Made by a program: the position numbers and the translations under genes
The notes under the pieces: model-generated
Database searches by the model: none
What the model was told of the DNA's origin: nothing
What the model saw: only the letters and a program-made list of their open reading frames with translations
NCBI GenBank assembly: GCA_030220185.1
Contig: JASPKZ010003432.1
Coordinates: 1,364,001-1,428,000 of the forward strand
Reading direction: 5' to 3'
Source of the DNA: Diploptera punctata
Lineage: Eukaryota; Arthropoda; Insecta; Blattodea; Blaberidae
DNA: 64,000 nucleotides
Part shown: in pieces, positions 14,701-55,700 of the stretch
Layout of the letters: each line of letters begins with the position of its first letter
Position numbering within the stretch: the stretch's first letter is position 1

Positions 14701-17700
14701 TTCTGAATGTGGATCTTTTCCCAAACCGTGAGTACCTTTTGTTTATCTATTTGTTTAATTACACTGGCTTTTGATTCAATTGAATGTTTTTCGGACCAAG
14801 CATGAGCAGCTACTGCTGACTTTTCCACTTCTCCATTTTTGACGTTTCTAAGATGTTCTTTCATGCTTGTTTTCAAATTTCTTTTTGTTTTTCCAATATA
14901 AATTTTGTCACAATCCTTGCATTTTATCTGATAAATTTCTGATTTTTTTTCTTCAATTCTTTCATTTTTATTAATTTTTAATTATCCTATTAAGGCTGTA
15001 TTCATTCTTTGGTGCTAATTTTATATTAAACTTTTTGAAAATGTTTTGGAACTTATGGTGTTTCAATGGATGGTAAGTGAATTTCTTGAATTTTATTTTT
15101 TCTGTTTCTTTTATAAGTGTGCTTTCATTAATTAATTTTTGTCTTTTAAATTTATTTATTTTCTTGTGTACCACATTTTCTTAATAACCGTTATCTACTG
15201 CAACATTAATTATGTGTTCTTTTTCTTTTTCATAGTTTTCTTTGCTCATAGGTATATTTACCAATCTATGTGTCAAACTATTGAATACTGCCTCTTTGTG
15301 AGCAAAATGGTTGAATCCTGAAGCTTTAATATAGTTGTCTATATGTGTATTCTTTCTATAAATTCCAAATTCTATCTTGTTTTCTTCGTTTCTTTTAAAA
15401 GTGAGATCTCACAGCTTAATGTCCCTCCTGGAGTACTTGCCCCTTGGATTTTTCCATCCTAAAAAAAATCCATTGACCCCAGCTGGGTTTGAACCCATGA
15501 CCCTCAAGACCAGATGCAAGGAGCTCAACCACTAGTCCACCATGGTCGAACATAATTAAGCATAAAGGAAACATAGACTTGAAGGTAAACAAAAGTAACA
15601 TTTGTAATCAAAATCAAAGTGGAAGGTTACAGAAGATGGTATTAACAGCAAAATTTCGACAGTTTGAGTTTGACTGAAGATATAAGTAAAATTATACTTT
15701 TGAAACCAGTATCGTGAAAACACACAACTTTATGAGGTGAGATATTACAAAAATTTTCTCCACCTCATTCATAAAAATAAAAGTAACATTAAAAAAAAGA
15801 TAAATCTGCAAAAATTGATACTATTCTTATTTACAATAAAAAAAATGACTTATTCCAAACATATACGAAAAATGTCTCATTAATTACTGCAACAAAAACC
15901 GAGTCACAAATAAATATAAGCAAAAACAAAAAACTCAACTTAAATGAAAAGCTCTATAGTGAAGAGTTGAAGGCCAATAGGCAGTGCAGAGGGAAGAACA
16001 CACTAATATTTAATTTTAGGAAGTTATATTTTGAGGTTATTTTAATTATATTATTTTTGGTCTGGACATCTTACCTCAATATTAATGTTGATTTGTTCTT
16101 GGACATGTTTCAAAACAATTCTGTTTTATCTTCTGGGAAAGCTGAAGATAAAACAGAATTGTTTTGAAACATGTCCAAGAACAAATCAACATTAATATTG
16201 AGGTAAGATGTCCAGACCAAAAATAATATAATTAAGAACACACTACTTCAGAGCACATCACAATGCAGACTGCAGTGCACATTAATTTTTTAATTCTTCT
16301 TGCCTCTGTCCTGAGGATTGGCAGATTCAAACCTGGCCAGGGTTGATGGATTTTTTAAGGTGCAAAATATCCAAGGAACAAGTCCTGGAGGAACTTTAAG
16401 CCATGGGTCCTGAGTCTGAAGATTTCCAGGCTCATAATAGAATCTTAAGCCATAAAAAAGAGGCCTCTATGTAAAATTTACCAACCCTCATACATCCAAG
16501 TAATACCTTAGTTGCCTACTAGGTATCTCATTGGGTCAGTGTGCTGACCATATGCCACTCATGAAATATGTACTGAATTAAGCATAACTAAATTAGTTTG
16601 GTCAAGAAACTCCCAACAAAGGAGTGGCTAAGGCCAGACTCAAAGGGCCCTGAAGCCAGAGAGAGAGAGAGAGAGAGATAGTCTGTTGTGGCAGCTGAAA
16701 TCCCAAATTATGAGGAGGAGGAAATAAAGAGGTGCTAAGGGAAGAGAAAGCAGAATGAGACAAAAATATGGAAACAGAACATTAAAGGTATCCTCTGAAC
16801 CAAGTAAATAGTTCACTGCACTTATAATGAGTAGTAAGACAGTGTTTTGTCTTGATTCCACATACAAACAGTTGAGTAATATATACTGTCACTGTTGCAA
16901 TCTTAACTTGTGGTACATAAAACTCCTTTCTGTAGCAACAAGATATTTTGACTATATTTATTTCAAGGTATTCTTACTTAAAGTTACCTACCATGAGAGG
17001 CCATTCTTCTCTCTGCAGCAAGTTGCTGGTGAGTGTTCGAACTCTTTGTAAGATGGCTGCTATTCCTTCCATATTCAATGCAGCTGTGTAGCAATCATGT
17101 GCACGAATCAATATTTCAACAACTGAAAATTAAAAATATCTCATCACTCTTGGATGGGGTGTAAGGAGTAGAAATGCATCATGCAGAGACTTTACTATAC
17201 AATTTCTTAACTTCACCTTCATATGGTACACCCTTTTTTAAATACTAACGAGGATAAGGGAGACCGAGTCACAGCAAGATAATTGTCAAATTATGCAATA
17301 GAGGAAATGCCATTTCATACCTTCCTTGCAAATGGAAGTTAAGAGTGGGCTAACTACCCGCCTTTTAAAAACAATGAGTTGTGGACCATTCACAAATATA
17401 CTTGGATAAAAGAAAAGACTTTCTGGAAAAACCAGATCAAGAAGAAAGAAGTGAACAACAGGGAGTTGTGGAGTATCTCTGTGAACGAGGCAAAAAAGAA
17501 TTTGGTATGAAATTGTCCAAAATTTATTGATAAGTCAGTCATGGATATTTTAAGGAAGTAAAAACTATCAGTACCGAGTTAAATATATATCCATTGAATG
17601 AGAAAATTAGAGAATATAGAGAGAAATGGTTTACACATGTGGAAAGAATGAATGTAACAAGATTACCAAGAGCAGCATTCAACTACAAGCAAGAGGTTCA

Positions 17701-20700
17701 AGGAATGTAGGAAGGCCAGTGAAAAGATGGACAGAACAACTGTGAGGCAGAATAGGCAATTTTTTCCTAGCCCATGAAGTGAAGAAGAAGAAGAAGAAGA
17801 AGAAGAAGAAGAAAAACTATCAATAATGGCTCCCTTCAGAAGGGAAGTAAAGTCAAATAAAAGGCCTTTCAGCAAACTTTGTCAGCTCCTTCATATCTAG
17901 ATTTGAATTGCGATACTAATGACCTGAGTTGTTAAAGAGCAATGTTAAATAAAAGCTAACATTTCGATCTTAAACATCACAGGTACTACTTAATATTAAT
18001 TTTTTTCACATTTTAGTATCTAAATTTTTGGACAAAGAGAGATAAACAGACAGATAAGCTAAATGATCTTAATGGGAAACCAAATGCAATAAGAATAGTT
18101 ATATTTGAAGAGAAAAATTATATGCTCAGACTGGGGTTTGGCTTTCTAAGCCAATGCTCTACCACTGAGTTACATGGGAAACTCCAATCTGAATGCAAAT
18201 TTTTCTCTTCAGCGAGAAGTGTTAAATAATAATAAAAACATCAAAAGAATAGTTATTTTTAGATTTAAATTAAAATGTTTTATACCTCACCTCATATCCA
18301 GTCTTCTAATTATTCTAATAGTTATATCTAGTAGACTGCATTAGATGGAACATGTGGCACAAAGGAGGAACCTAAGAGGGGGATGGAAACTCCTTGTATG
18401 TAAAACTGAGAGAAAATTTGGAGTAGGTGACCCAAGAATGAGATAAGAAAATAATATTAACCATAATTTGAGGGAGATAAAAATGTATAATGTTATGGCG
18501 GTTCCCACAATATTGTATGGATGTGAAACTTGGGCACCAATGAAAAAACAGAAGGATAGAATACAGACGGCGGAGATGAGGGTCCTAAGACAAGTAAAAG
18601 GATGTACAAGACTTGATAGAATAAGAAATGAGGATATAAGAGAAGAATTGAAAGTACAGCCTTTATTGGATAAGGTCACGAATTACAGACAGAAATGGAT
18701 TGATCACATGGATGGAATGAGTAAGGAGAGCAAGAAATTATCAAGCAAGAGGAAGACGTGATATTGGAAGACCTAGAAGACGTTGGGCTGATGCATTATG
18801 AAGTCAGAATGGGCAATTGCCTAATCCCTGGAGTGATGATGATGATGATGATGATGAATTATGTAGGTACTATATGGTAATTAATAAGCTTGGTCTGTAT
18901 GTGTATATATACATATATATGTTACATTGCAGATTTTCGCGGATATAAGTATGAATAAGAAAGTTTTCTTAGGTTTTCCGCGTCTTGGATTCAGGAGTCG
19001 GTGGCCAGGGGCCGAACTTGAATCCAAGATGCAGAAAACCCAAGAAAACTTTCTTATTCATATATATATACATATACAGACCAAGCTTAATAATTAATTA
19101 TAACCTTTTAATGTTACTTCCTATTGTATTTTTAAAACTATATACTAATGTTTTTATTATTAATTTAATACTTCTCACTGAAGGACAAATTACATTTGAA
19201 GAGAAAAATAGATGCTCAGATTGGAGTTTGAAGTCCAAGCATATATTTTTCTCTTTAAATATAATTTTTCCTTCAGTGAGAAGTGTTACATTAATAATAG
19301 AAACATCGAAATAAACCCTACTGGCTTTATAAAGTAATGTTTAAATTCCCAATAAGAATCTTCTTAAAAAAAGAAGCTGTCATTTGTGTGATCGAGCAAA
19401 GGTTCATAAATTTGGCACTTGGAATTAACAATGTATAAGAGAAAAATTTGCATTTAAGATTGGAGTGCTCAGGTAGCTCAGTTGGTAGAGCATTGGCATA
19501 GAAAGCCAAAGGTTCTGGGTTCAAATCCCAGTCTGAGCGTATATTTTTATCTTCAAATACTATATAGTATTTCCCATTAAAAACCAGAAGGCATATCGAA
19601 AAATGGATCATAGCCTTTGACGTTCTAGGGAATTGTATAAATAAGAGAGAAATTCACATTTATATTGGAGGCCTTGGTAACTCAGTTGGAAAGAGGACTA
19701 GTGTATAGAACTAGAGATCTTGGGTTCAAACCCCAATTTAGGTATACATTTTTCTCTTCAAATATAAATACAAATATGTAAATATGTAGGTAATGATTGA
19801 AAAATATTAGCTCATGCTAGAGATTGTATGGAGGACTTATGTACATGCAGCCATGAACCACTGAATTTGATAGTGCTAATGAGTTGGTTGGTTGGTTGGT
19901 TAGTTAGTATCATTAATATTCTGTATAGGCATACCTTCTGTATTTGAATCTGGGTCAAGAGTTCCAAGTTTGATAGCTTCTTTCAGAAGTTTGGTGCCTA
20001 ATTTTGAAGGTTCTTCACAGAGTTCCAACACACGATGAAAATTATTTTCCATCTTACATCCCCATAACATTATTCCCAGAGACTCACTTGTTTCACCTGA
20101 AACAAAATTAAGAAACTGTACAATTTAACAATTTACAGAATTTTAAAAATGTCTACACTATATTTAACTTTCACAGGGAAAAAATCACCATGAGGTTTAA
20201 TTTAATTCTTAATGTTTATACTAATTTATACAAAAAATGGAAAGTGACACTATAAGATAATAAAAAGGTTAAAATAATAAAATACTAACTGAGATCTTCA
20301 ACAGTTTTTAAACACCTTTTCAACAGCTGAAACTGGAACATGTACCAAAAAGCCTACAATATCTTCTAACTGAAATTTTACTTACAATGGAACTGCCAAC
20401 AATTGCATGTCGAAACCTACCATGAAATTTCTTCCAGAGAAGCATTGTGATGTACAAAGGCCATGTCCAAAAAATGATTTGCCACTTTAACTGCAAGACA
20501 CAAAAATCGAAGCTAGAATCCAGCACTGACAACCCATTTTATGGAGCAGATGGACTCCCTGCTTGAGTAAAAGCAGAGTGGAATGAGGGCGGACTCAGTG
20601 CAATTATAGGTAGTGAAGTTTTTATCCAATCTACTGGTCATGAGTTGTATTACTTCCTCTCTATCTATCTATCTTCGGGTTTTTACAGCTGCTGCCATCT

Positions 20701-26700: not shown

Positions 26701-29700
26701 CAAGCAAAAGAAAGGCATGCTAATATCTATCAGTCATTTAATTGTATCCTTAAAAGTAAAAAAACGTTGTTACTCTAGTATGGATATTTAATGAATCTTT
26801 TGCAGATGTGCAGTTACAGAATTTGTTGGATCAAACAACCTGGCATACAGTTACATTACAAGATCCAGTTCTTATAATAATAATATTATTATTATTTTTT
26901 AAATGCATAGGCCTATTTGTGACTGTAGATTAATTTATTTTTCAAAGTATCTCGCAAATAAATTGTGCTTGTTAAATCAGTCATAACAAATACTTTGCAT
27001 TTAACAACTAATTAAAGGCCCTCGTATCAATTATGCTGATCGAGATACTTTTTACTCTTAAATTGTTAATATTACATATGTGGAATTATTTGGAGCCCAA
27101 ATAGTGACTTCCAGATTTTTGCCAACTTTTTCGCATTTTGGATCACTGTGCCACAGCTTAAAGTCCCTCCCAGAGGACTTGCTTCTTGAAACTAGTATTG
27201 GAAATTATTTAAAATAGGAGGTGAGGTTTACAGTATGATTAATTTACTGATTAAGTTATGTAGATAGGAAATAACACTATGAGGTTTTTTAATATTGTTT
27301 AAATAAAACCTCATAATGTTACTTCTTAACAGATATATCTAGCCATTTTGTTCCAGTTGTAATATTATCAGTAGTTGTTTAATTGCTGATTCATAGCTTG
27401 TTGTAGGAGTGTCACCATTCTCAACCGATATCCGCCTCTTTTGTTGACTGTTGGATGTCCAACACCTGAGGAAAAGAATATACAAACCACCCAAAAGTCA
27501 ACACAAAAGTTGGATAATAGTTGAAAATGTGACAATGATTCCTGAAACATCTTCAAGTGAAAAAACAAAATGTGAAGTTAGATCTATATTTCACATTCAA
27601 TCTCTTAGTAAAGTTAAGACTTTTTTTTTCCAAAGGTACTGCAACTGTAGAAGAAGATTTCTGTCCATCACTGATTTTACTTTACTGCTACGTACACACT
27701 GTAGAGCTGAAATCTACATGAATTAAACATGTAGATGGGCAGTAGTATTAACAAGAACATTAAAAATAAAACTATATAAAAGCCCAATGAGACCAATAGT
27801 TATACACAACTGCCGAGACAATTCTAATGAGAATGCACTAAGAACATTGTAAAGGAAAATTATAAGAACAATATATTGCCCTGATCATGAGGAAAACATC
27901 TGAAGAATAAGAACAAACTCCAAAATAATGGAATATTATGCGGAAAAGATATATTAAGTTTCTAAGACATAGTTGGCTTAGAGTACCAAAAAAAAAAAAA
28001 AATTGAACAGTAAGTTTATTGGAGTTTGTCATAGAGAAAGATCCTGGAAAATATGGCTTCAGAACTCAGACAAAGATATTAAAATGATGAGGATAAATAG
28101 ACGATGAAAAAAAATACAAGATCAAGATTTTATTTAATTAATGTTGGGAAGTAAACATTATGAGGTATAATCATTAAAATTCATCGGAGAACATATTGTT
28201 TAAACAACTCACCTCATAGGATTCATGCTTCCATGAAATCGCGATTTCAAACATAATCATGTTCATCGTCAGTCGGAGTTATGGCTGACGATGAACATGA
28301 TTATGTTTGAAATCGCGATTTCATGGAAGCATGAATCCTACGAGGTGAGTTGTTTAAACAATATGTTCTCCAATGAATTTTAAAGATCAAGATTATTGGG
28401 GGAAAATTGTGAAGGAAGCCAAGGCTTACCAAGGAATGTAACGCTGAATGTGATGATGATGATGAGATGGGCAATAGGCAGTCATGTTTTGTATACAGTC
28501 TATAAAAAGAACAACAGCATTTATTCGTGAAGAATTGGGAGTTAGTCATTTATCCTTCAATATACAACTCCATTCTTTAGAATCATTTTCACTAATAGTT
28601 GTACATAAATTGAATAAAATTTGTTTGGTATTTTTTATTTCAATTTTTTAGTTTGAAAATTTAAAGGTGTTTATTTGATGGTATTGGAGAATTAATAAAA
28701 TAAGATACAGTCCTTACCTGAAATGGTTTATCTAAATTGATAGAAACACACAAAAAATGATACGACATCCAATCTTCTGACCATGTTGTAGATTTTCAAC
28801 TAGTTTTTCCAAAACTGAAAGAGATTCTTTTTTCTCTATTATAGCAATTTCTGATATTTCCAAGCTGAAGCTTTGATTCAAAGTACTGTGTGAAGAAGCA
28901 GGAGAGACCACTGAAAACAAAATAAACTTAAAATCATCATCATAAATATTTTCATTGTTTCTTATTTATAGGCACTTATAAGGTAACATCTAAGGTCATA
29001 GAGCAGTTATTTTTATTTATTTATTATTTATATGTATTTATTTATGTTATCATAAAATGGTGAGTGTGATGTAATGTATCCTCGATGAGACAGGAAAACC
29101 AGGAGAAAATCTCAATCAGGTCAGTCAGCATTGAAGTTCAATCCAGGGACCTCTAAATATAAATCTCAAATTTCTATCACTTGAGTTAATTCACTTGGTA
29201 TTTTTATTTTTATTATTAAATGGTATGAATTAATTACAATTAATATAATTATAACAAAGAAATAAACAAAAATATTTATCTACACTATAAGGCTACTGTA
29301 GATAGTATTATGTTATATGGATCAGAGATATGGACAATTAAAATGTGTCAAGCCAAGTTATTAGGAACGGAGATGGATTACTGGAGAAGATCATCGCAGG
29401 AGCCAGGATTAGAAAAAAAAATAGAAACATGAAATTAGAAAAATTATGAAATTTGAAACAAATGTATCACATACAATTGAAGAAAGACAAATAAGATGAT
29501 ACGGACATTTCAAGAGGATGTTATCTGACAGAATCCCTAAGAAGACCTTGTAATGGAGAATAAATGGAAAAAGAAGGGAACATCTTAAGAGGGTTAGATG
29601 GATGGAGTAGTATGGCTGAACTGGAACTTACAGATGAGGATGTTCAGGACCATTATAAATGAAGAAGGTGAATTTGTTGAGGGTGACAGAAAACCATAGT

Positions 29701-38700: not shown

Positions 38701-41700
38701 GAAAATCATTATTTTGAAGTTGAAAATCTATCAGCATAATTTTAAATTATGAATTTAGACTTAGGGTCGAATGTTTGAACGCATTAGACAGTAAAAGGCG
38801 TTCTCTGCTGATAAAGTTTTATTCAAACACATTTTTCTTACTCAGAAATCTATTCACGCGGTAATAATTGTAAAGCTACCTGACAAGGTACCTTAAGATC
38901 GTAGCTCAAGATATAAACTTATGTGAAAATCCCGAAGGGAACCGATGGTAACCAATGTAGTTTGAAACTTATCCAAGAAGTCGGACCTTGAAGACTTCGA
39001 TCATGTTTTCGGTATACGCGGAGAAGAGGAATTTGATAGAGTCTACCAAAGGATTCAACTGGAAGAACAGGAGAATCGGTGTAATATTGCGCGTCGCAGA
39101 CGTGTTTGTATACGGTATTATTTGCGGGATGCAAGCATAAATGCATTCCTCTATAGCAGATGAAAATAACGGAAGTGGTTTTATCGCTGAGAATTCTGCG
39201 TAATTCATTGCCAATATTACGAAAAGTCAACATTCATGCATGACCGGTTAAGGCGGCCGTTAATTCAATCTCAGCTCACCAGTGATTGGAAGTAATTTGA
39301 GTAGAGAGTAATATATTTGCATACGACCCTTAATGTCTTTCAGTTAAATGCACTTAATACAAATATATATATATATATATATTTTTTTTATATTTGATTA
39401 TAAAAAATTTTTAAACATTGTGATACAAAAAGATTTCATTTTCAAATGACTTTCTGTAATCAACTCTATCAATATGACACTCTCTCTCTTTCTGGAAGAC
39501 AAAATTAATACTAATTAAACTTTAAAACACACAGTAATGAGAAATCATGGGCAGTTATCCTGCAGAATAAGAATGTAATACCTGAACAACTGAGGCATGA
39601 AGAAGTAGCAACATTCAGACCGTTAACAGGACATGACTATCTGGAAGCACACCTACACAAAATTGGAATTTTCAACTCTCCAAATTGTATACTGTGTCAA
39701 GGTAATAAGTCAACACTGGATAAAGACCACATTATTAACTTCAGGCTCTCAAGATGTCACCTACAAAAACTCTGGCTAGACTCTATTGAGAAGCAAGGAT
39801 GCTAATGGAACACATCTAAGCTAATGGGCATTATTGAAATTCATCGGAGAACATTTTTCGACAACTCACCTCATAGATTTCATGCTTTTCACAATACTGC
39901 AGTTTCAAACAAAATTTCGTTCATCTGGGTTGTGTGTTGACTGCATGCCATCTACGACATCTATGAGCAAATAAGGTAACTAAAAATTAACTTAGAGTCG
40001 TATCTATGAACGCATTAGACCGTAAAAGTCGTTCTCTGCTGAGAAAGTTGCATCCAAAGACGTTTTTGCATTCTCAAAAATCTGTTTATGCGATAATAAT
40101 ATCTGATGAGGTGACTTTGCAGAGAACGAATTGTGAGCAACCCGATGGGAACCGATGTAATTTGAAACCTTGCTGCTTTATCCAAGATGTCAGGCCTTGA
40201 AGACTTCGATCATGTTTTCGGTATACGCGGAGAAGAGGAATTTGATAGAGTCTACCAAAGAATTCAACTGGAAGAACAGGAGAATTGGCGTAATATCGCA
40301 TGATGCAGACATTGTCGTATATGGTATTATTTGCAGGATGCAAGCGTAAATGCGTTTCTCTAGCAGATGAAAATAACAGAAGTGGTTTTATCACTGAGAA
40401 TTCTGGGTAATTTCATGCCAATATTATGAAAAAAAAACTACTTTCATGCATGACCAGCCAGCGACTCGCTAATTTGAACTTTGCACGTTCTCACAGAAAA
40501 CTCAACTCACCAGAGACTAATGTTTTTGCATGTGGCCCTTAGTCTAGTAACTACTTATAAAGGAGAGACTATAGCTCAACAATGGGACTATGCCATTATA
40601 GATAGATATGACATTATAAGACCAGTGAAAATTAGACAATTTTAATCTATCTGCAATGGTGTAACAGCCCGAAGTTGGGCCTTACCTTCTCCTTTTGTTA
40701 GGAGTTACAAGACCAATTTAGTTAAGCTTATTTCTCTAAAGATGTTGTAAATGGTATGCAGTCAACATACCGACCCAATGAAACATCTAATATGCAACTA
40801 AGGTATTACTAGGATGAAGGAGGTTGGTAAACTTTAATTATATTATTTTTGGTCTGGACATCTTACCTCAATATTAATGTTGATTTGTTCTTGGACATGT
40901 TTTTTGAAACATGTCCAAGAACAAATCAACATTAATATTGAAGTAAGATGTCCAGACCAAAAATAATATAATTAAAATAACCTCAAAATATAACTTCCTA
41001 AAATTAAATATTGGTAAACTTTGCTTAGAGGTCTCTTTATTTAGGCTTAAATATCTTTTTTACAAGCCTGAAAATCTTCAGACTCAGGACCCACAGCTGA
41101 AAGTCCCTGCTGGAGGACTTGTTCCTTGGATTTTTTTATATAAAAATCCATTGACCCCAGCTGAGTTTGAATTCACAACCAATTAAATAAAAATGATGCT
41201 CTACTTATATTTTCTATGGAAAACATAAGGAAATATAAATATGAGATGTTATATACATCTGCACTCTAAATAAGATAATAATTTCTGGTTCATGTAAAAA
41301 AATAGTATTGAGAATAAAATGAATCGTGAATTCTTCTTACCTCATACTTCTATGTTTTTTTAAACACAGCACCGCAGTATCGGCGACCATCGTCACCATC
41401 ATCAGCTGTTTTCACGACTGTCAATTTTTTTCTCTTTTGCCAGTAATTATCCAAAACTTCTTTTGAAGGAATAATTTTCTAAACTGCCATCTGTTGTATT
41501 TTTTAAGAACTTTGTAATCAAGCTTGGTTCGTTTGGAATCTCGAAGTTCATGGTTCTAGTATGGTTTTTTTGAATATATATCTTTTCTCAAACTGTTAAA
41601 TCCAAAAGTTTGAATAGATGTTTCAAAAGTTTTGCTTCTTTTTCAATTCTATGATTCTCTAATAAACTAAGTGCTGCTATAGCTGATTTTTTAATAATTT

Positions 41701-43654
41701 CTCCATTCTTTATGTTTCTGATTCCTTCAAAAGAACACCAGATGGCAGTTTGGATAATTACCAGCAAAAGAGAAAAAAATTGACAGTCGTGAAAACAGCT
41801 GATGATCGTGACAATGGTCGCCGATATTGCAGTGCTGTGTTTAAAAAACAACAAAGAAGTATGAGGTAAGAAGAATTCACGATTCATTTTATTCTTATCA
41901 ACAAAACCTCATAATGTTAAAAATTCCCAAATTTATTATATTAAAGAAATATTATCTTTAGAAAATAATATTAATTACCTGATTATGATGATTAAACATG
42001 GCTTCCAATCTGCAAGCAGTACATATGTCTCCTTGATCTAGTAATTTTCCAATCAACACATCAAGTCGCATTATCTGTTGCGAATCATCCAGCTTTGTTC
42101 TGTTTTCAATACCAGACACAGATTGCACCTCTGCTTTGGTTTTACACAATAATTTACCATCTGTAACTGTAACTCCTTCAATCAAGGTCTCCTGAAAAAA
42201 ATATTATTTTATTTAATTCTACTGAAAAAAATTAATTCCAACCAGAATAGAATATTTTCTTGACTGCAGAGAGGAAATTGACTAAAGTTTGGCCATAAAA
42301 AAATATATTTTTTTTGTAAAAAAATTCAGTAAACTTTTATTCATAATAATTGTAATAATCATGCAAGAATTTTTATGCTACAAGTTTAGATTGCAACATA
42401 TATATAAAATGTGATTCAACTGTTTATATGTGGAACCAAAATAAAAGAGAGTCAGAAGTCTTACTTCTCATTATACTGTGTTACAATCTTAACTTTTAGC
42501 ACATAAAACTCCTTGCCCTATTTAACAATAATAATGACTGCAACTACAACAAAAAAAAAATAATAATGGTGGCACTAATAAACCTTTCAAAACATTTGGA
42601 TACATTAGATTAGGATTTGGGTAGGTTAAAACAGGATTTGGATATATTAATTATATTTAATTTATTTTTATAAACTTTATCTTAAGTTTTTGGATATTGC
42701 AGGATATTGGAAACAGTGACGCCGAGTGAGGTAACATGACCAATCTATTCTATAATCTGTTTTCCCATGATTCATAGCTATCTTTTCAGGATCCACGTAA
42801 TATTACATATATCATGATTTTTAGGTTTTTTAGGCCAAATTCTAATTTTTTTTTCCATATTGTTTATTTTTTATTATTTCACTCACCTCATACTTCATTT
42901 TTTCCATATTTCTCCTACTTTTTTTTTTCAACATGAAATATATATATCTATAAAAATTTGATTCGGAAGTTAATCGGTCAGCCAATAGAGGGAGCAGAAA
43001 TCAACCTACATGATTGTCAACCGCCGATTCAACAGTTAGAAAGAATTGATAATTATATGTAATGTATCAACTAGTTTTCAAGAGGTAAGTCATGAAAATT
43101 TCTAACTCTATATATATATATATATTTGCTAATTACATTCTTCAACAGTAATTTTTCCTATTTTTGGTTTCTTTTCTGAAAATTATGGTAGTGTATCATT
43201 TCTGGCTTCCGCCAAGAAAGATCAAGTACGGATACGATATACACAGTGAAAGGTATTGCTGGAAAGTTTTGGAAGTATGATCGTGATCTTTTCCATCTTT
43301 CTATGGATTTTGAAACAGCCTATGATAGTGTGGAGAGGAAAAGATTATATAGGAATATGGCAAAATATGGAATACCTAAGAAAATTATAAGACTTGATAA
43401 AATAACTAGGATTTGAGAACCAAAATTAAAATATGTGGAGGTGTTTCATTGTAAGAAACTGAAATTGTGGCTGCTAGAGCAATTTTTAAATTTTGCTTCA
43501 GGTGAACTCCTACTCCTAATGATTCAATTTTGTTGGTTACAGAATTTGACTCTACTTTTCTTAACTGATCACTATACACCAAATTTGGTTCCAGGAGATA
43601 AAAAACTGCAGCTGCTAGAGCATTAACAGACATACACAAGCATGCATGCATGTA

Positions 43655-43701
<47 letters not shown>

Positions 43702-46700
43702 CCATCCATAGTAATTCTGCCCGAAGGCAGGTCCTTCACTGCAATCATAGCATTTTCATGCTATGCTTGCAGCTTTACTAGGGGATTGTAGGTGTGGTAG
43801 CTTCCTGTTGCTTTCCACACCGGTAATATGTTATATGGGTCTTATATCTTCTTCTTCTTCCTTCCAAGTATTAGGCCAAGGCCTGTTATAGAAAATTTTC
43901 CCTCCAGCGTTTCATAGGACGGCCCAGTGATCTTCGTCCTCTTGGTATATAATTATAAACAGCTTTGGGTCTTATATAACAGAAAATATGATAGAGATTC
44001 TTCACCAGTCCAACTTTATCAACCATGATGTAATAAATTAAGATTATTGAAGTACTATTGAACACAGCAAAACCAATTATTATTGAATTCTCCAAAAGAA
44101 AATTTAAAAAATGCATATATATATATCTTAAAAGAATTGAAGACTACGCCAATTTTGGAATATATTAAACAGTACCAACTAAATTGGAAACACCATCTTG
44201 AAAGAATGAGTTCAAATCGGATCCCCAAAGCTGTTTATAATTATATACCAAGAGGACAAAGATCACTGGGCTGTCCTATGAAACGCTGGAGGGAAAATTT
44301 TCTATAGGATCGTAACAGGCCTTGGCCTAATACTTAGAAGGAAGAAGAAGAAGAAGAAGAATATATATATATATATATATGGGGCACGCCTTAGCATAGG
44401 GGTTAAGGCACTGCTATACAAGCCAGAAGGCCGAGGGTTTGAGTCCCAGTGGGGTCAGGATTTTTAAACTGACCCAAACATTCTGGCGGCCCTATAGCCC
44501 TGAGGTCGACTCAGCCTCTAACTGAAATGAGTGCCAGACGCTTGTCCTGGGGTAAAGGCGGCCGTCACGCAGGGCTGACAACCCAGCTGACATCAAGTGC
44601 CGATTGTCTAGAAAAAGTGGGAGCCTTAACCTCCTACTACCCCAAGGGCCTCCTGAGGCCTGTAGTGGGATGACTTTACTTTAAATATATATACTTTTTT
44701 CTTCATTTTCTGTGATTACTAAATAGGATTGATGAAGATTTGTAATGTTAAATACGTGGGAAAGTAAAATATTAAGGAAGGTATATGGAGCAGTACATGA
44801 ACAAGATATATGGAGAATTAGAACGAACCAGGAATTCAAAGAATTATATAGGGATTTAGATCTGGTACGAGATATTAGAAGAAAGAGACTGGAATGGGTA
44901 GGACATATGTTGAGGATGGAACAAGAAAGAGGTGCAAGAAAGATTTTAGAAGGGAAACCGGAAGGAAGAAGAAAGGTTGGAAGACAGAAACTAAGATAGT
45001 TAGATAAGGCTGAGGAAGACTTAAGACAACTGAAGGTTAAAAGATGGAGACAGAAAGCCAGGAATAGGGAGAATGGGCAGATGTTATGAAGGAGGTCAAG
45101 GTTCTTAGAGGACTGTAGAGCAAGGAAGAAGAAGAAGAAAAGTTTTGTAAAAAATAAAAAATAAATATATTCATGGCAATAACTCAATAGCTTCTTTCCT
45201 TCAGAATTCATTAAAAATTGTCAGAAATAAAAGGAAGAAAGATTATATTTGTAAAGAAAAATATATTCAACTTTTATATATGCCTAGACTGGGGTTTGAA
45301 CCCAGGACCTTTGACTCTTGGATAGAGCATTGACATAGAGAGTCAAAGGTCCTGGGTTCAAACCCCAGTCTAGGCGTATATTTTTCTTTCCAAATATAAT
45401 TTGTCCATCATTAAGATGTTTAAAAATGAATAATATGAACATTAGGAAGAAAGATATTAATATTATTAATTTCATACATCTCATTGATGGATAAATCATA
45501 TTTGAAGAGAAAAATTATACACACAGACCGGGGCTTGAACCCGGGACCCTTGGTTTTCTAGTCCAAGTGCTCTACCATCTGAGCTACCTGAGCAAATACT
45601 GATCTAAATGCAAATCTTTCTCTATATACGTTATAATTCCCGCCCACCAAATGCTTTGAAGCCTTTGCTTCTATCTTTGCAAATGGCGGCTCATTTATTA
45701 AGAAGACATATTTGGGAATTATACATTACATTATAAATGCCAGTACGGCTTTTTTCTATGTTTTTATTATTAATTTCATACATCTCATTGATGGATAAAT
45801 CATATTTGAAGAGAAAAATTATACGCTCAGACCCGGGACCCTTGGTTTTCTAGTCCAAGTGCTCTACCATCTGAGCTACCTGAGCAAGTACCGATTAAAA
45901 TTTTTACTTCAATAAACTAAAATTATTTTTCGTTCTGTGTTTGTACATCCTTTCTTAGCAATACTTTGCACATTCCTTACAGAATAACGGTACAGGCTGG
46001 TTGTAAATGGGTTTTCTAAAGGAGGGTGTACATTCATGTCTGAAGGCCTTCTTTTTTTGGCTATGGAATATTGCAATTTCAGGATTTTCTCTTTATTTAT
46101 TTTATTTTTAGTTGAAAAGATACCTGACCAAGGGGTAGGTCGTGTTGTGAAACACAGTGATTCATGTCTCAAAGTTGAAAAAAATACAATATGCGTGTTT
46201 ATTGTGTCAGTTTTATCAGAAGATGAGAGTGACAGTAACAGTTCATCAAATATTGTTTATTTTTTATCATTTCACTCACCTCATACTTCATAATTTATAG
46301 CAGACCCAGGGTTTCTTCACGTAATTCGTGACATTGTCAATGCTGCGTCATGTTCACAACTGAGTTGTGAACATGACGCAGCATTGACAATGTCACGAAT
46401 TACGTGAAGAAACCCTGGGTCTGCTATAAATTATGAAGTATGAGGTGAGTGAAATGATAAAAAATAAACAATATTAAAGAACCTCATAGTGTTATTTCCT
46501 ATCTACATAACTTAAGTTCATCAAATGATTATTCGTTTGACGAATGTGATAGTAGTCCAGTTTCTAAGAGAATATTATTACAATCTAAGCCTGTAAATAA
46601 TAAAGCAGGTGATGTAGACCTAAATGAACAGGGTGTGAGTGACAGTGGTGGGTGTGTCGCGCCAGACGAAACATGTGGCATAAAACAGCTGTTTGACTGG

Positions 46701-49700
46701 AATTGATTCGAACCCAGGACCATAAAAATGTTCAACAATATTTAATATTATAAGTGTTTAGTGATAATGCCATCAAAATTATTCAATAGGATAAACTTTT
46801 AGTGATAGTGATAACAAATTTCAATACAGACACCGTGCTGAATTCGAACCTGGGATCTTTACATGTGGAAGCAACACTACCTAACCTTCAAATAAATGTA
46901 TAATGTGAGTTTAAATTCAATTTAGCATGGCATGTAGACAGTTAATTCTTCTTCCTTCCAAGTATTACGCCAAGGCCTGTTACGATCCTATAGAAAATTT
47001 TCCCTCCAGCGTTTCATAGGACGGCCCAGTGATCTTTGTCCTCTTGGTATATAATTATAAACAGCTTTGGGGATCTGATTTGAACTCATTCTTTCAAGAT
47101 GGTGTTTCCAATTTAGTTGGTGCTGTTTAATATATTCCAAAATTGGCGTAGTCCTTTAAGATATAGGTGTTCCTTTTCCGATCCCATCTGGTGTAACCTG
47201 CTGTTCTGCACATGAATCTCATTTCACAAGCTGTTATTCTGCTTTCATGTTGTCTTTTTAGTGTCCATGCTTCACTACCATAGGTCAACACTGGTCTAGC
47301 CAAAGTGTTATATAAATGTAATCTGGTGTTTTTTTGTACAAGGGATGGTCTCATAACTTGATTAATAATGATGTTTTTATTATTAATTTAACATTTCTCA
47401 ATGAAAGATAAATTAAATTTGAAGAGAAAAATTTTCGCCTAGACCGGGACTCGAACCCGGGACCCTTGGCTTTCCGGGCTAAGTGCTCTACCAACTGAGC
47501 TACCGAGGCGAGTTACGATCTAGACGCAAATTTTTCTCTTATATACGTTGTAATTCCCTATCGCCAAATGCTTTCGAAACCATTGTTTCTATCTTTGCAA
47601 ATGGCGGCTTCTTAGTTAAGAAGACATTTATTGGAAATTTTAACATTACTTTAAAAGCCAGTAAGGCCTCTAATGATGTTTTTATTATTAATTTAACATT
47701 TCTCAATGAAAGATAAATTAAATTTGAAGAGAAAAAAAAACATCATTAGAGGCCTTACTGGCTTTTAAAGTAATGTTAAAATTTCCAATAAATGTCTTCT
47801 TAACTAAGAAGCTGCCATTTGCAAAGATAGAAACAATGGTTTCGAAAGCATTTGGCGATAGGGAATTACAACGTATATAAGAGAAAAATTTGCGTCTAGA
47901 TCGTAACTCGCCTCGGTAGCTCAGTTGGTAGAGCACTTGGCCCGGAAAGCCAAGGGTCCCGGGTTCGAGTCCCGGTCTAGGCGAAAATTTTTCTCTTCAA
48001 ATTTAATTTATCTTTCATTGAGAAATGTTAAATTAATAATAAAAACATCATTAGAGGCCTTACTGGCTTTTAAAGTAATGTTAAAATTTCCAATAAATGT
48101 CTTCTTAACTAAGAAGCCGCCATTTGCAAAGATAGAAACAATGGTTTCGAAAGCATTTGGCGATAGGGAATTACAACGTATATAAGAGAAAAATTTGCGT
48201 CTAGATCGTAACTCGCCTCGGTAGCTCAGTTGGTAGAGCACTTGGCCCGGAAAGCCAAGGGTCCCGGGTTCGAGTCCCGGTCTAGGCAAAAATTTTTCTC
48301 TTCAAATTTGATTAATAATTCCTAAACTTTTATTATAACTAGTAATTTTTTCAGGGATATCCTTTTCATCCCAGATAGAGAGATAATATCCAAGATATTT
48401 AAATTGATTAGATCTCTCTAAAATTTTATTCTGGAGACAGATTTTACTTTGTATGGAGTCCTTCCCATGAAATGCCATAATTATAGTTAATTATACTTTA
48501 TATAGGTTTTTATTATATAGTATGGCGTAGTACTTTAAATTTAAAAAACCTGGCACCCACAGCCCAGCTGGCAAAAGGGAAACTCGGCGGTCAAAAGGTT
48601 AAAAATGTTGTTGTTGTTGTTGTTTTCAAATGCTGGGCCTTGGCACCGAAGCCATTAGCGTTCTTGCTCTCCAATATTTCTCTATTGTGGATCCAACAGG
48701 TAATACTTCACAGGTTTGTAGGTTAAAAATGTTAAGATTGAGTTTGTTAAACAGCAAAACCAGACTATTAGAAATAGAAGTTCACCAAAACAAATATTTA
48801 AAAATCGCTCCACAGTCACAATTTTCTGTATTTTGCAACAAAACTCAGTGTACGTTTTTGAAATAAAATGAGGAGGTATTCTCAAAAAATCAGCAAAATC
48901 TGACATTAGAAGTGGAGTTTACCTGTAATCTGAAATTTAAAAAAATGTTCTAAGTTTGTTTCATTGTAATGTATCTGTATATCATAAAATTCAATTAACC
49001 GTTAAATTGGCAATATATCCCATAAATATACATCGGTTTAATTTATTTAATAATTTAAATAAAATAATGAAAAAAGTGAATCAGTATAAATTATTTAAAT
49101 GTATCTCAAATTATATAATAATACGCAATTGATAATAACTTATGCATGGTTTGTTTCCATTGCAGTTCAACATGTTTAAGTAATACATTTGAAGAGAAAA
49201 ATTATATGCTCAGACTGGGGTTTGAACCCAGGACCTTTTGCACTCTAAGCAAATGTTCTACCAACTGAGTTATCTGAGAAACTCCAATCCAAACACAAAT
49301 TGTTCTCTTATATCTTCTTCTTGTAAGCCCATGTTTCCCTTAACAGAGATTTAGGCACTCTCCCCCTATAGGGAAGAATTTGAACCATACTAATTTAGTT
49401 ACACTTGTTTTCGTATAGATGTCCTTTGTGTGGTCCGTGGTCAGCGTTCCACCTCATATTGACATCTAGGAAACCAAGGTAGTACTAGGACAGGAATATT
49501 CAGTAAATTTTGCTTAGAGGCCTTTCATTCAGGCTTAAGGATCTTTTACAATGTTAATTCCCACATACCAAATGCTATGAAGCCGTTGCTTCTATCACGC
49601 AAATGGTGGCTTCTTTATTAAGAAGACCTTTAACTGGAAATTTCACATTACATTATAAAGCCAGTATGGCTTCTTTCGATGTTTTTTATTATTCATTTCA

Positions 49701-52700
49701 TACATCTCAATGATGGATAAATTATATTTGAAGAGGAAAATTATATGCTCAGACTGGGGTTTGAACCCAGGAAATTTTGCACTAATGCTCTACCTCTGAG
49801 CTATCTGAGTAACTCCAATCTAAATGCAAATTTTTCTCTTACATATGCTGTTAATTCCCGTGCACCAAATGCTATGAAGACATTGCTTCTATCTTGCAAA
49901 TGGTGGCTTTTTAATTAAGAAGACCTTTAATTGGGAATTGTCCCGCGCCGTAGCCGAGTGGTTAAGGCAGGAACCCTTGGCGCAGAGCTACGGGACTTGC
50001 ACTGGTTCGAGTCTCCATGGGGGAAGAAATTTTCTCATGGTATTTCGGCCAGTATGGGACCGGTGCCCACCCAGCATCGTGATGCATTTGGGTAGCTACA
50101 ATAAGTAGCGGCTCCAGGTTGAGAAAACCAGCTATAACGGCTGGGGGACTCGACATGCTGACCACATGTCACCCCTACACTGGCTGATTATCATCTACCT
50201 CTGTGATTAACACATGTGGATGCGAGGCCAGCAGCTGGCTGGTAGGCTAAGGGCATTGTAGGCCTGTCGTGCCAGGAGTTTTTTTTTTTTAATTGGGAAT
50301 TTCACATGACATTATAAAGCCAGTATGGCTTCTTTCAATGTTTTTTATTATTCATTTCATACATGTGAAATAAATAATGAACAATAAAAAAAAGTTTAAG
50401 TAAGTTGACATAAGAAATTGAGTTTCTCCAATTTAAGCATTAACAAAAGAATTATACATTCTACAAACTAACACAATCAGATTATAACTTTGACTTGCTG
50501 AGGAATTCGTTTAGTTTAGTCCTGGGCAAGACATTTTTTGTGATAATATGTAATTAAAGATTAAATAAGATACTTTACCTCCAGTTCTATCTCAGACTGA
50601 AGCAAACATTTCCACATCTCCAGTTCTATGCTGTTTTCCTCATTTACAACAGCTGACTCATCCTTTGCAAACTCCTTCAACTCCCTCAACCACTTGAGAC
50701 AACATTTCAGGATGTGATACCTGCAAAATATAAAACCATATGCTGACTTATGTGATAGTATATCTGCTTTAATAAAAATGTTCTTGGGAAGTAACACTAT
50801 GAGGCAAATTACCAATATTACATAATTGAATTGGAAATTTTTACACCTCACCTCTTAAAAATAAATTTCTCTCCAGACTAGTTTTGAAGGCTATCGCCTC
50901 CATCATCAACTACACTTGACTCAATGAAATTGAGTCATTAACACCAGCATTCCTTTTGCCATCTGGTGCAGGTTGAATGAACTTCAATATCAAATCTAGC
51001 TTGTCAAGAACTTCAAATCAATGGCTCAATATTTGTTCTTCTAAATATATATCTTTTCCCAAGCTGTTAGTTCCATAGGTTTTTCTAAATGTTTTAATAG
51101 TACTGTTTCTTTTTTAATTATTTTAATTATGTGACTATATATCAAACTATGAGTGCAATCATCAATGTTTCAATTTTGCTATTTTTAATATATCTACAGT
51201 GTTCTTTAGTATGACTCAATTAGTATATTTTAAAATACAATAGGCAGTAACATTAAGAGATTTGTTTAATAATTAAGACATTTAGGCTCAAATCTATGAA
51301 TGCATTAGACCTTAAAAGTCGTTCTCTTCCTGTACTCTGCTGAGAAAGTTGCATCCAAATATGTTTTTGCATACTCAAAAATCTGTTCACGCAATAATAA
51401 TTGTTGAAATTCCTAAGCTACCTGGCGAGGTGACTTAGCAGAGAAACGAATTGTGAGCAACCCGATGGGAACTGATGTAGTTTGAAACCTTGCCGCATAC
51501 CTTGCTGCTTTATCCAAGATGTCGGACCTTGAAGACTTCGATCATGTTTTCGGTATACACGGAGAAGAGGAGTTTGATAGAGTCTACCAAAGAATTCAAC
51601 TGGAAGAACATGAGAATCAGCGTAATATTGCACGATGCAGATGTCGTCGTATACAGTATTATTTGCGGGACGCAAGCGTAAATGCATTCCTCTAGCAGAT
51701 GAAAATAACGGAAGTGGTTTTATCGTTGAGAATTCTGGGTAATTTCTTGCCAATAATACGAAAACGATGACTTTCATGCATGACCAGTTACTGGGTAGCT
51801 AATTCGATCTTTGCACTTGCTCATGGAAAGTCAGCTCACCAGTGATTGGAAGTAATTTGAGTAGAAACCAATGTATTTGCATGCGGCCCTTAGTCTGTAC
51901 ATTCTTACTCTTATGGTTGTTTTTGTCAAACATATGTTTCAAGGCTTTTGAGCCCCATCGTCAGCGATTACAGAGTATAGCTAATGATGGTAAAAGAAAA
52001 CGATAAGAAATACATATTTAAAATTCATCGGAGAACATATTGTTTAAACAACTCACCTCATAGGATTCATGCTTCCATGATATCGCGATTTCAAACATAG
52101 TCATGTTCATCATCAGCCATAACTCCGACTGACGAAATTCTTCGGCCGTCAACTATTCTATTGTCGCCATCTTCAGTGCTGCCATCTATGGTTGAATTTA
52201 TAAACTTCAAAATCAATGTAATTTCGTTAGGGATATCAAAATTCATTGATCTATTTTTGTTTTTCTGAATGTATATTTTTTCCCAAACTGTCAATTCCAA
52301 AGGTTTCTCTACTTGTTTTAAAAGTTTAGCTTCTCTTCCAATTTTATGATGTTCTAATAAACTATGTGCAGCAATTGCAGATTTTTCAATTTCACAATTT
52401 TTAATATTTCTGAAATGTTCTTTTATCCGAATTTCCAAATTCCTTTTTGTTTTTCCTATATAAACTTTATTGCAATCTTCACAATTTATTTGATAAATTC
52501 CAGATTTCTTACTGTCTGGAACATTTACTTTTTTATTGGTACTTAGAAGATTACCCAGACTAAATTTATTTATTGGTGCCAAAGAAATGTTGTATTTGTC
52601 AAAATTTTTTTGAAATTTCCTATGCATTTCAGGATGGTAAGTAATTTTCTTGTATTTTTTCTTTTCTTTGCAATTTTGTAGAGTAGTATATTCATTAAGT

Positions 52701-55700
52701 CTTTTTTTGTGTTTGAATTTCTTCAACTTATTTATAATTAATTCAAACACAAAAAAATACTTAATGAATATACTACTCTACAAAATTGCAAAGAAAAGAA
52801 AAAATACAAGAAAATTACTTACCATCCTGAAATGCATAGGAAATTTCAAAAAAAATTTGACAAATACAACATTTCTTTGGCACCAATAAATAAATTTAGT
52901 CTGGGTAATCTTCTAAGTACCAATAAAAAAGTAAATGTTCCAGACAGTAAGAAATCTGGAATTTATCAAATAAATTGTGAAGATTGCAATAAAGTTTATA
53001 TAGAAAAAACAACAAGGAATTTGGAAATTCGGACAAAAGAACATTTCAGAAATATTAAAAATTGTGAAATTGAAAAATCTGCAATTGCTGCACATAGTTT
53101 ATTAGAACATCATAAAATTGGAAGAGAAGCTAAACTTTTAAAACAAGTAGAGAACCTTTGGAATTGACAGTTTGGGAAAAAATATACATTCAGAAAAACA
53201 AAAATAGATCAATGAATTTTGATATCCCTAACGAAATTACATTGATTTTGAAGTTTATAAATTCAACCATAGATGGCAGCACTGAAGATGGCGACAATAG
53301 AATAGTTGACGGCCGAAGAATTTCGTCAGTCGGAGTTATGGCTGATGATGAACATGACTATGTTTGAAATCGCGATATCATGGAAGCATGAATCCTATGA
53401 GGTGAGTTGTTTAAACAATATGTTCTCCTTATATATTAAATTTGGGAATTTTTAACATTATGAGGTTCAATTAATGATAATTAAATGAATCGTGATTTTT
53501 AAATGTAATACCCCAGACAACAAAAAATCTGGGATTTATCAAATTGATTGCAAAGATTGCAACAAGATATATATAGGAAAAACAAAAAGGAACTTGGAAA
53601 CGCGTAAAAAAGAGCACTTCAGAAACATGAAGAATGGAGAAATTGAAAAATCAGCTGTAGCAGCACATAGTTTATTAGAGCATCATAGGATTGAAAAAGA
53701 AGCAAAACTTTTAAAACATCTATCTAAACCTTTGGATTTAACAGTTTGGGAAAAAATATATATTCAAAAAAAACATACTAGAACTATGAACTTTGAGATT
53801 CCGGAAGAACCAAGCTTGATTACAAAGTTCTTCAAAAATACAACAGATAGCAGTTTAGGAAATGATTCATTCAAAATAACACCAGATGGCAGTTTGAAGA
53901 GGAATTCCTTCAAAAGAACACCAGATGGCAGTCTAGATAATTACCAGCAAAAAGGAGAAAAAATTGACAGTCGTGAAAACAGCTGACGATGACGACAAAC
54001 TGTCGCCGATACTGCAGTGCTGTGTTTAAAGAAACATAGATGTATGAGGTAAGAAAAAATCACGATTCATTTAATTATCAATATGTTCTCCGATGAATTT
54101 TAATGATTATACCTCATAATGTTTACTTCCCAACATTAATTTAATATAAATACATATTTTCTTTATGAGGTGAGATGTAAACATTTCCAATTCAATTATG
54201 CAGTAAGATTATCTGCTTCATGACTAAAGAATCTAAGTTGATTCATGTGGTTGGAAATTTTAATACTAAACCTCTTGGCTATTATAGCACAAACATCTAT
54301 ATGTGGGTATTAGAACAGGATACAGATAACAAACTATTGAAATTTTTTTGTATTATTATCCATCGCAAATTAAGTAATATCTAGTTGGAATACTTCAAGG
54401 TTAGGGTGAGTCATTTTTGTTAACTTGGGAAGTTAAATCAACAATAGAAACCAATTTAATTCAGTGAGGAGCAGGAGAAGAGAAAAACAAAATACCTTCT
54501 GTAACATTTAGTTTTCTGGAGTTGGGAATTCTTTTTATATTGAATGGTTTAAGTACAAATAATCTATATAATGTGGTCTGCTGAAATGGTTCCTAATTGA
54601 AAAACAGACTACATGAATGCCTTCTATTCACTTAATGCAGAACACGAAGCATGAAAATTCTAGTGGGTTGCATTCAAACACACACATAATAATTTAATAT
54701 TGTAGGAAATAACACTATGAGGTTTCATTTAATCATTAATGAGTTGGTTATGTTGATTCACCTCATAATTCTTGATTTTTATGCAGACCAGGTTCTGTCA
54801 CTTTTGTGCGACATTGTCAATGCATTCCAACCGCAGAACAAAAGTTAGAATGCATCGACAATGTCACGCAAAAGCGACGAAACCTGGTCTGCATAAAAAT
54901 CAAGAAATATGAGATGAGTCAGAATAACCAACTCATTAATAACACACATAATAAATTGTACTAGTTTTTTTACCTTTCTCTATGCAGTGATATTTCATCA
55001 GCAAGTTGTTTGAAGAAATTAGTAGCTGTCCTACAGTTTAACTTAGCTAATAAAAATGCCTCATCACATTTATTCAGCTTATGTACAAAGTCATCTTCTT
55101 GATGGCTTTCTGCTGCATCATTCCATTTCTTGAATTCATTTGACCACTGAACAACAAAATAAAAATATTTATCAAAAGTCATGTTAAACAAATTAATGAT
55201 TTTCCATTAAAACTTAGTGGAAGACATTAACTGTACCATGATGATGATCCATCCATAGTATCCATTGTAATTCTGCCCGACGGCAGGTATTTCACTGCAA
55301 TCATAGCATTTTCATGCTATGATTTGCAGCTTTACTAGGGAATTATAGGTGTGGTAGCTTCCTGTTGCTTTGAACACCAGTTAAGGATGATGAAGATAAT
55401 GATAAGGATGATGATGATGGCCGGATGATTTTTGGGGACCGTTGGGCCCTAAGCATCCTGACATTTTCTTTACTATAAGCTAAGGGATTAATCACTTCTG
55501 AATTTAAATTGTATTTTCCAGTTACTGTAATGAAGTTTGAAGAAATAAAAGATGGAAATGCTTCAATACACAATTATTTTAAATCTTGGAGTATCCAAGA
55601 AAAGTGCTATTGCATCTTTAAATTGATAATGGGTCATTTTGTCTGTCAAAACATTTACACAGAATTGGAATTATCACTTCCAACTTTGCTCCTAGTGCAA

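Follow-up and report, generated by a model that had tools for sequence, protein, structure and literature searches.

Two-armed insertions of Penelope-like element ends in the cockroach Diploptera punctata suggest priming from both sides of a single target

A 64,000-nucleotide stretch of the Diploptera punctata genome (assembly GCA_030220185.1, contig JASPKZ010003432.1, positions 1,364,001 to 1,428,000 of the forward strand; hereafter the window, with positions counted from its first letter) carries short palindromes made of two inverted Penelope-like element (PLE) ends, enclosed together by one short target duplication. PLEs, which are related to telomerase, form the third class of eukaryotic retroelements. 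The two-armed structure is real and frequent, and its sequence features suggest that such insertions are probably single events, carried out by PLE machinery acting simultaneously on the two sides of the target. The integration route of PLEs is unsettled, self-priming having been hypothesised in 2013 and an in-vitro study of 2024 having left the later steps open. The insertions described here form a natural record of cut spacing, target motif, start-site pairing and cDNA joining, with which the question becomes testable.

The initial annotation of the window had described five palindromes as inverted pairs of PLE 3' ends with a hammerhead in both arms, and the five pairs and their exact flanking duplications are confirmed. 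Foldbacks 1 to 5 are the elements 16006-16233 (subfamily C; 15994..16245 with its target site duplications AAGAACACACTA at 15994-16005 and 16234-16245), 28130-28382 (subfamily A; 28118..28394 with AAGATCAAGATT), 40836-41010 (subfamily C; 40824..41022 with TTGGTAAACTTT), 46252-46514 (subfamily D; 46240..46526 with AGTTCATCAAAT) and 54693-54941 (subfamily E; 54680..54954 with ACACACATAATAA), the duplication being 12 bp long in the first four and 13 bp in the last. Four subfamilies are represented, in agreement with the at least three proposed initially. The ungapped arms measure, in the same order, 92 nt (100% alike), 103 nt (97%), 70 nt (99%), 130 nt (94%) and 97 nt (88%), the last value suggesting that foldback 5 is an older or heterogeneous element. 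The hammerhead is less general than had been annotated: its core, CTGANGA..GAAA, is present in two of the five, in both arms of foldback 2 and in one arm of foldback 1, and absent from the other three. The motif occurs in several PLE-end copies, with no hammerhead match in Rfam at the gathering threshold anywhere in the window and none up to E 5 in a search of 52000-54200.

A feature that had been missed is that the five palindromes are asymmetric. One arm is 37-45 nt longer at its outer end, and this extra piece, the tail, is alike within each subfamily. It is found in the left arm of foldbacks 1 (16006-16043, antisense), 2 (28130-28174) and 5 (54693-54733), and in the right arm of foldbacks 3 (40974-41010) and 4 (46473-46514).

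The same anatomy is found at 15 sites of the window, which bears out the repeated structure and nearly fixed duplication length that had been proposed. A scan for elements with inverted ends that are flanked by a direct repeat of 10-16 bp gave 27 rows, corresponding to 13 separate insertions, all with duplications of 12-13 bp and an offset of 37-48 nt between their ends; repeats inside palindromes and rows whose repeat belongs to a tail (e.g. 18242-21661) were dropped. Five shuffles of the window in 10-base blocks gave no row at all, which excludes a chance origin, while a reversed-sequence control is uninformative because reversal preserves palindromes. Two more, 7149-10404 (offset 42) and 18103-18244 (offset 30, a weaker match), came from a search based on the ends. 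The scan was also applied to a sample of the assembly (3,123,318,691 bases) made of 20 regions of 10 kb, one from each of 20 long contigs and always at the same position, which amount to 197.5 kb of readable sequence. It returned 39 rows, of which 12 were kept, and the end search brought the total to 14 with L038:4373-5017 (offset 51) and L045:8854-9814 (offset 46). The rows dropped were simple repeats (L055:434), repeats inside palindromes, repeats shorter than 10 bp and a few longer repeats without matching ends; two loci with short repeats, L037:7933 and L055:7436, are one-tailed by eye and uncounted. The end search as a whole found 156 distinct ends in 264 kb, 79 of them outside the foldbacks known by then, and 26 rows with a candidate duplication. 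These included five two-armed loci, four of which were counted (exact repeats of 12, 12, 16 and 17 bp); the fifth, L049:3712-4246, was left out, its tailed end being interrupted and its 11-bp repeat itself tail-like. Two-armed insertions span 92 bp to more than 2 kb with one end anatomy, and their arms run from about 40 nt to more than 1 kb, some holding PLE coding sequence or tRNA-bearing repeats. By a crude extrapolation, 14 insertions in 197.5 kb would scale to roughly 200,000 genome-wide, and much of the palindromic DNA of cockroach genomes may stem from insertions of this kind.

Families A, B, C and F resemble PLE ends, with a tail and paired T(A/T)GAGGT...ACCTCA(T/A)A motifs; D and E have the tail motifs and lack the hammerhead core. 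The GIY-YIG endonuclease domain (Pfam PF01541) is matched above cut-off at 52091-52777 (minus strand) and 53489-53986 (plus strand), both inside the large subfamily A foldback 52020-54147 (52008..54159 with duplication AAATACATATTT; tail right), whose arms extend into PLE GIY-YIG coding sequence; among the window elements, the match is shown for this one. Among 30 hits to this endonuclease, every relative with a named source is a Diploptera punctata protein. PF00078 gave 150 scored matches genome-wide, not sorted by reverse transcriptase type. Two other hallmarks of endonuclease-containing PLEs are found here, namely an optional 3' tail and an inverted arrangement of pseudo-long terminal repeats (pLTRs) with target duplication.

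Another set of insertions, the tRNA-type, is associated with repeats about 300 bp long that contain a tRNA-Ser-like sequence. In the window it comprises 10707-11403 (10695..11415 with AATCTTAAGTCT; tail right), 45244-45443 (45232..45455 with AGGAAGAAAGAT; tail right), 47370-48307 (47358..48319 with TTGATTAATAAT; tail in the left arm; tandem 305-bp units, each tRNA-Ser-like) and, by end match, 18103-18244 (18091..18256 with AAGAATAGTTAT; tail right). A genome search with one tRNA unit gave 113 matches, 40 of 315 candidates being scored. Both orientations were seen on nine contigs, with the antisense copy left and the sense copy right on all nine; the other matches show a single orientation, in a search that displays only about 50 nt beyond the match. 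Seven inverted loci that were fetched have duplications of 12-15 bp, and all ten tRNA-type loci characterised have head-to-head arms, one tailed arm and a duplication of about 12-15 bp. The tRNA-type tails examined show no CCTCATA motif. If it is true that these tandem repeats use PLE machinery, they would be a new kind of PLE passenger.

The repeats themselves lie at 10707-11403, 13620-14027, 47370-48307 and 58401-59148, in tandem in several places, and TTTTT closely follows the tRNA-Ser-like sequence in the 47370 and 10707 units. Their tandem and inverted arrangement is PLE-like rather than that of an ordinary short interspersed nuclear element (SINE). By eye, a degenerate hammerhead can be made out in the unit (GATAGAAAC..GTTTCGAAAGC); Rfam lends it no support, and we do not claim it. 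Short fragments (q256 in the tRNA-unit search, and similar 50-nt partners in family A) were rejected as defined 5' ends in view of the display limit of about 50 nt. At 13626-14149 an antisense tRNA-type array adjoins a sense C end; a chimeric foldback is unproven there, no clean duplication being present.

The asymmetry of the five foldbacks turned out to be a general rule. Exactly one arm carries an outer tail, of 30-54 nt, in 28 of 29 two-armed insertions (15/15 in the window and 13/14 in the sample), and the seven fetched tRNA-type loci are likewise one-tailed in every case. If each arm chose its start site independently, at most half of the insertions would be expected to be one-tailed. 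The A and D loci were kept out of this statistic because they had been picked with tailed queries. In the seven tRNA-type loci the outer ends stop at two places of the unit, positions 260-269 and 304/305/1-3. Two candidates for insertions tail-less on both sides, C6394 and C3766, were rejected, their sequences (L099 and L100) being each one-tailed. The symmetric terminal inverted repeats of a DNA-transposon foldback or miniature inverted-repeat transposable element are not found, the ends being offset by the tail.

The target is symmetric too. We pooled 65 duplications (13 from the window, 12 from the sample, 7 tRNA-type, 17 from family A and 16 from family D), leaving out L063 (one of 18 A loci; one duplication mismatch), four of 20 D loci (L083, L087, L095 and L101) and the four loci from the end search. 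The duplication is 12 bp long in 33/65 and 13 bp in 19/65, with a range of 10-16. When the tailed side is set left, A has a frequency of 0.74 at each of positions -3 and -2, and T of 0.75 at +2 and 0.83 at +3. Without orientation, AA is present at -3,-2 in 41/65 and TT at +2,+3 in 39/65, and both together in 23/65 versus 1.5% at random genomic positions with the same geometry. The target thus tends to the symmetric form AAN, 12-13 bp, NTT. Both halves are found in 8/17 A, 8/16 D and 5/10 tRNA-type insertions (the last with AA in 8/10 and TT in 5/10), and in 1/8 window PLEs, 0/2 AT-rich and 1/12 sample insertions. As no sequence separates the arms from the duplication, the ends serving as primers must be 3' overhangs, and the cut in each strand would fall immediately in front of an RTT-like site. 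The string TTAGTTGGTACT is the duplication or a flank at three insertions (1250-1300, 36700-36775 and L074) and is possibly a hot target within a repeat.

In two nested cases that were tested, the duplication and both arms were gained in one event; the outcome that was to refute the initial annotation, arms inserted at different times, is thus contradicted there. The subfamily B PLE 53429-54078 (53416..54091 with CAATATGTTCTCC) is inserted in the large foldback 52020-54147. Its flanks, joined with one copy of the duplication, match the other arm of that foldback at 63 of 63 aligned bases, and they also match the copy at 418-522 (106/107) and the arm at 28130 (104/105). The joined flanks of L094 match the element of L044 over 101 aligned columns with 3 mismatches. 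In both cases an uninterrupted copy is restored. Moreover, in four of eight tRNA-type loci both arms share a variant that is rare among the other loci: G174A in L058 and L082 (the latter also with an inserted A at 101), G96A in L081, and the absence of G102A in the window locus. These shared variants fit the copying of one RNA, or of two sister RNAs from one locus.

How could such a structure arise in one event? A GIY-YIG endonuclease, probably as a dimer, would cut both strands at inverted RTT-like sites about 12 bp apart, leaving two 3' overhangs that would each prime reverse transcription of a PLE-type RNA. One cDNA would begin at the outer start site and include the tail, the other at the inner site without it, and each would extend toward the 5' end of the RNA over a variable length. 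The 3' ends of the two cDNAs would then be linked, either by short complementary stretches or with a few bases of filler, and the 12-bp duplication would result from filling of the gaps. The foldbacks would be the short products of this route, longer cDNAs giving PLEs with an open reading frame (ORF) as well as tandem tRNA elements, all with ends of the same kind. A shared RNA hairpin may be held between two reverse transcriptase subunits, and the one-tail rule would depend on both start sites and on the TATGAGGT/ACCTCATA stem in the RNA. The dimer, the order in which the strands would be cut and the number of RNAs copied (one, or two sisters) are matters of inference.

This two-ended priming is reminiscent of the behaviour of a purified PLE of Anolis carolinensis, Poseidon, whose GIY-YIG enzyme cuts and extends both strands, mostly at 5'-ATT-3', and whose reverse transcription starts at two internal sites bounding a tail of 30-40 bp (PMC11167929). 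Applied to both ends of one target, these in-vitro facts predict head-to-head arms, a short and nearly fixed duplication, a symmetric target and two stops. A broader claim seems to us evenly poised, namely that two-sided target-primed reverse transcription is the normal route of endonuclease-containing PLEs, with a dimer acting on one RNA hairpin, every insertion starting as a head-to-head pair of cDNAs of which exactly one is tailed, tandem tRNA-bearing repeats being inserted by the same machinery, and foldbacks being the commonest product in this genome.

One-armed insertions also exist, and they fit a second cDNA that failed or remained very short. They include the tail-less D copy 6321-6429 (plus strand; 6309..6441 with TTTCAACACCAA), which starts near the 5' end of the D foldback arms, and tail-only pieces near 36763 and 21739; L101 is, by eye, a single D arm with a 12-bp duplication. 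About 8 one-armed insertions stand beside the 29 two-armed ones, under detection rules that differ between the two counts.

The best surviving alternative, which we nevertheless hold to be unlikely, is self-priming: a cDNA or an antisense RNA would fold back on an inverted repeat near its 5' end and copy itself, and the resulting hairpin would integrate. Self-priming on an antisense template has been hypothesised for the PLEs of the rotifer Adineta vaga, with a call for further experiments, and it accounts for head-to-head arms and palindromic junctions (PMC3846280). The variants shared by both arms in four of eight tRNA-type loci are also in its favour, as is the family A junction, which lies on a native inverted repeat. 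However, self-priming makes one arm by copying the other, and the new arm cannot pass the end of its template, so that the tailed arm should be the longer one inward. In eight of nine tRNA-type foldbacks measured it is the tail-less arm that extends further 5' (the tail being taken as 45 nt, which decides L061 and L081, and with 45244 excluded). The same is observed in 53429-54078, where the antisense arm of about 72 nt is tailed and the long sense arm is tail-less, and the central loop of family A belongs to the native sequence of the tail-less arm. Nor does self-priming explain the symmetric target motif. The proposed two-ended priming, for its part, leaves the bias toward a longer tail-less arm unexplained.

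The initial annotation had favoured a discrete non-autonomous foldback class, perhaps copied from a self-priming hairpin RNA, i.e. an element transcribed and copied as a unit. This now appears improbable, as near-identical arms meet at different junctions and the same anatomy is found with ORF and tRNA content. Nine tRNA-type loci have nine different junctions. Among 19 D elements (that of the window and 18 of 20 fetched) there are nine centre forms, a string and its reverse complement being taken as one, although the commonest is common to 8/19 copies; part of this variety could come from palindrome centres being unstable once inserted. Foldback 4 itself has its centre at the D 5' end AGTTGTGAAC. 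Foldbacks 1 and 3 belong to the same family C and have different centres. The discrete element finds support in family A, in which the junction of 28130 recurs in 38 of 40 scored matches (from 887 candidates, window copy included) and an exact 30-base junction string is common to 17 of 18 fetched loci. In 17 of these 18 loci the element lies at a different site within an exact duplication of 10-13 bp, and the outer boundaries of the copies vary by a few nucleotides on either side, a pattern that suggests new initiation at each end. The 12-nt centre of foldback 2 is the native sequence of its tail-less arm, and the family A junction may be a hotspot. A native family A query returned no candidate although the sequence is in the genome, and empty answers from such a search are therefore weak. 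All in all, a discrete foldback element does not account for most of the two-armed insertions.

An origin in two separate insertions of solo ends, or in recombination of copies, with an opposite orientation due to chance, is very improbable: solo ends do occur, but a single duplication brackets both arms, the order of antisense left and sense right holds on all nine contigs of the tRNA search, and the restored uninterrupted copies refute this origin for the two nested cases. An assembly or sequencing artefact is the least credible origin of all, its sole favourable point being that long-read chimeras can be fold-backs, which would not create target duplications, a one-tail asymmetry or a target motif.

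Several observations weigh against two-ended priming. The shared junction of family A could mean that a ready-made foldback is copied or amplified as a unit. A shared source of both arms is weakly supported, the distance between arms being 3.0 differences per 240 nt within loci and 4.3 between loci, with gaps at position 21 as an edge effect. The tailed arm extends further 5' in L082 (tRNA-type) and, by eye, in L040:9346 (C-type), which fits self-priming as well as two-ended priming. The one-tail rule has an exception, L056:4076-4936 in the sample, with two tail-less arms, and the use of each start site once is not predicted from the in-vitro work, the available text of which reports no start-site difference between strands (PMC11167929). 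The target motif was found after the fact, and it is weak in the window PLE and sample sets. Finally, no partner PLE was identified for the tRNA-type or AT-rich families, no search having been made for a PLE matching the tRNA-type 3' end.

Part of this anatomy is already published, namely the inverted pLTRs, the optional tail and the palindromic junctions. The endonuclease-containing PLEs of Adineta vaga have head-to-head inverted pLTRs, flanking duplications and palindromic junctions; a 31-bp tail is optional on one inverted pLTR, as in the one-tailed arms here, and unrelated sequence (a non-ribosomal peptide synthetase gene) can be carried between pLTRs, in likeness to the cargo described above (PMC3846280). 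The duplications described for them in the available text are of 8-10 bp or absent, versus mostly 12-13 bp in the cockroach, and that text gives no account of frequent short ORF-less foldbacks or of a strict one-tail rule (PMC3846280). Poseidon cuts both strands near ATT, extends both and uses two start sites, as proposed here, but that work was done in vitro; the accessible text of the paper contains neither 'head-to-head' nor 'twin priming', and its sole 'inverted' is inverted dT (PMC11167929).

The two-ended model also resembles the twin priming of LINE-1, in which the second end of the target also primes on the RNA of the element, with an inverted 5' piece and target duplications as the result. 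Twin-primed LINE-1 arms come from different parts of the RNA, whereas here both arms begin at the element's own 3' start sites. Metazoan retrozymes are a further likeness, as small non-autonomous multicopy repeats with type I hammerheads and, when present, target duplications; the word 'inverted' is absent from the available text of that paper, and here three of the five named elements lack the hammerhead core (PMC7229834). A paper on SINEs of Blattella germanica makes, in its accessible part, no mention of Penelope (PMC9191728). In the open-access subset of the literature that was searched, as far as its texts were available, we found three points nowhere described: one-tailed arms as the mark of a two-ended insertion, target symmetry among genomic copies, and tandem repeats with tRNA sequences inserted in this manner. 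As far as our searches show, all three are new within that literature. Among 28 loci returned by pattern scans of viral and bacterial collections, none lies in a PLE context.

Four other two-armed insertions complete the window set. The long one, 7149-10404 (7137..10416 with AAGCTAAGAATT; tail left), contains at 8498-9634 (minus strand) an RNase H-bearing ORF resembling that of a non-LTR retrotransposon. A short AT-rich family is represented by 6671-6772 (6659..6784 with ATTTCTGAGATT) and 30642-30734 (30629..30747 with ATAGTGCATGAAT), both with the tail left, and subfamily F by 57516-57607 (57503..57620 with TATGTGTATAAAT; tail left). In the sample, L039:3701-3926 and L056:2698-3386 belong to another family (ends CTTTCACGGC and GACGTTTCG) with the same signature and a 31-nt tail, the second also with a hammerhead-like core by eye. 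At L056:6129-6487 the duplication AAACCTCTTAAT is present three times (6129, 6201 and 6476), around a 60-bp tRNA-type tail piece and then a foldback; these are two adjacent insertions at one target. At 27252-27345 two PLE tails from different families adjoin each other back to back, and inspection by eye shows no duplication. Lastly, the palindrome centres at 47617-47803 and 52608-52851 give sub-threshold Rfam matches to several microRNA families on both strands, and they constitute a trap for microRNA annotation.

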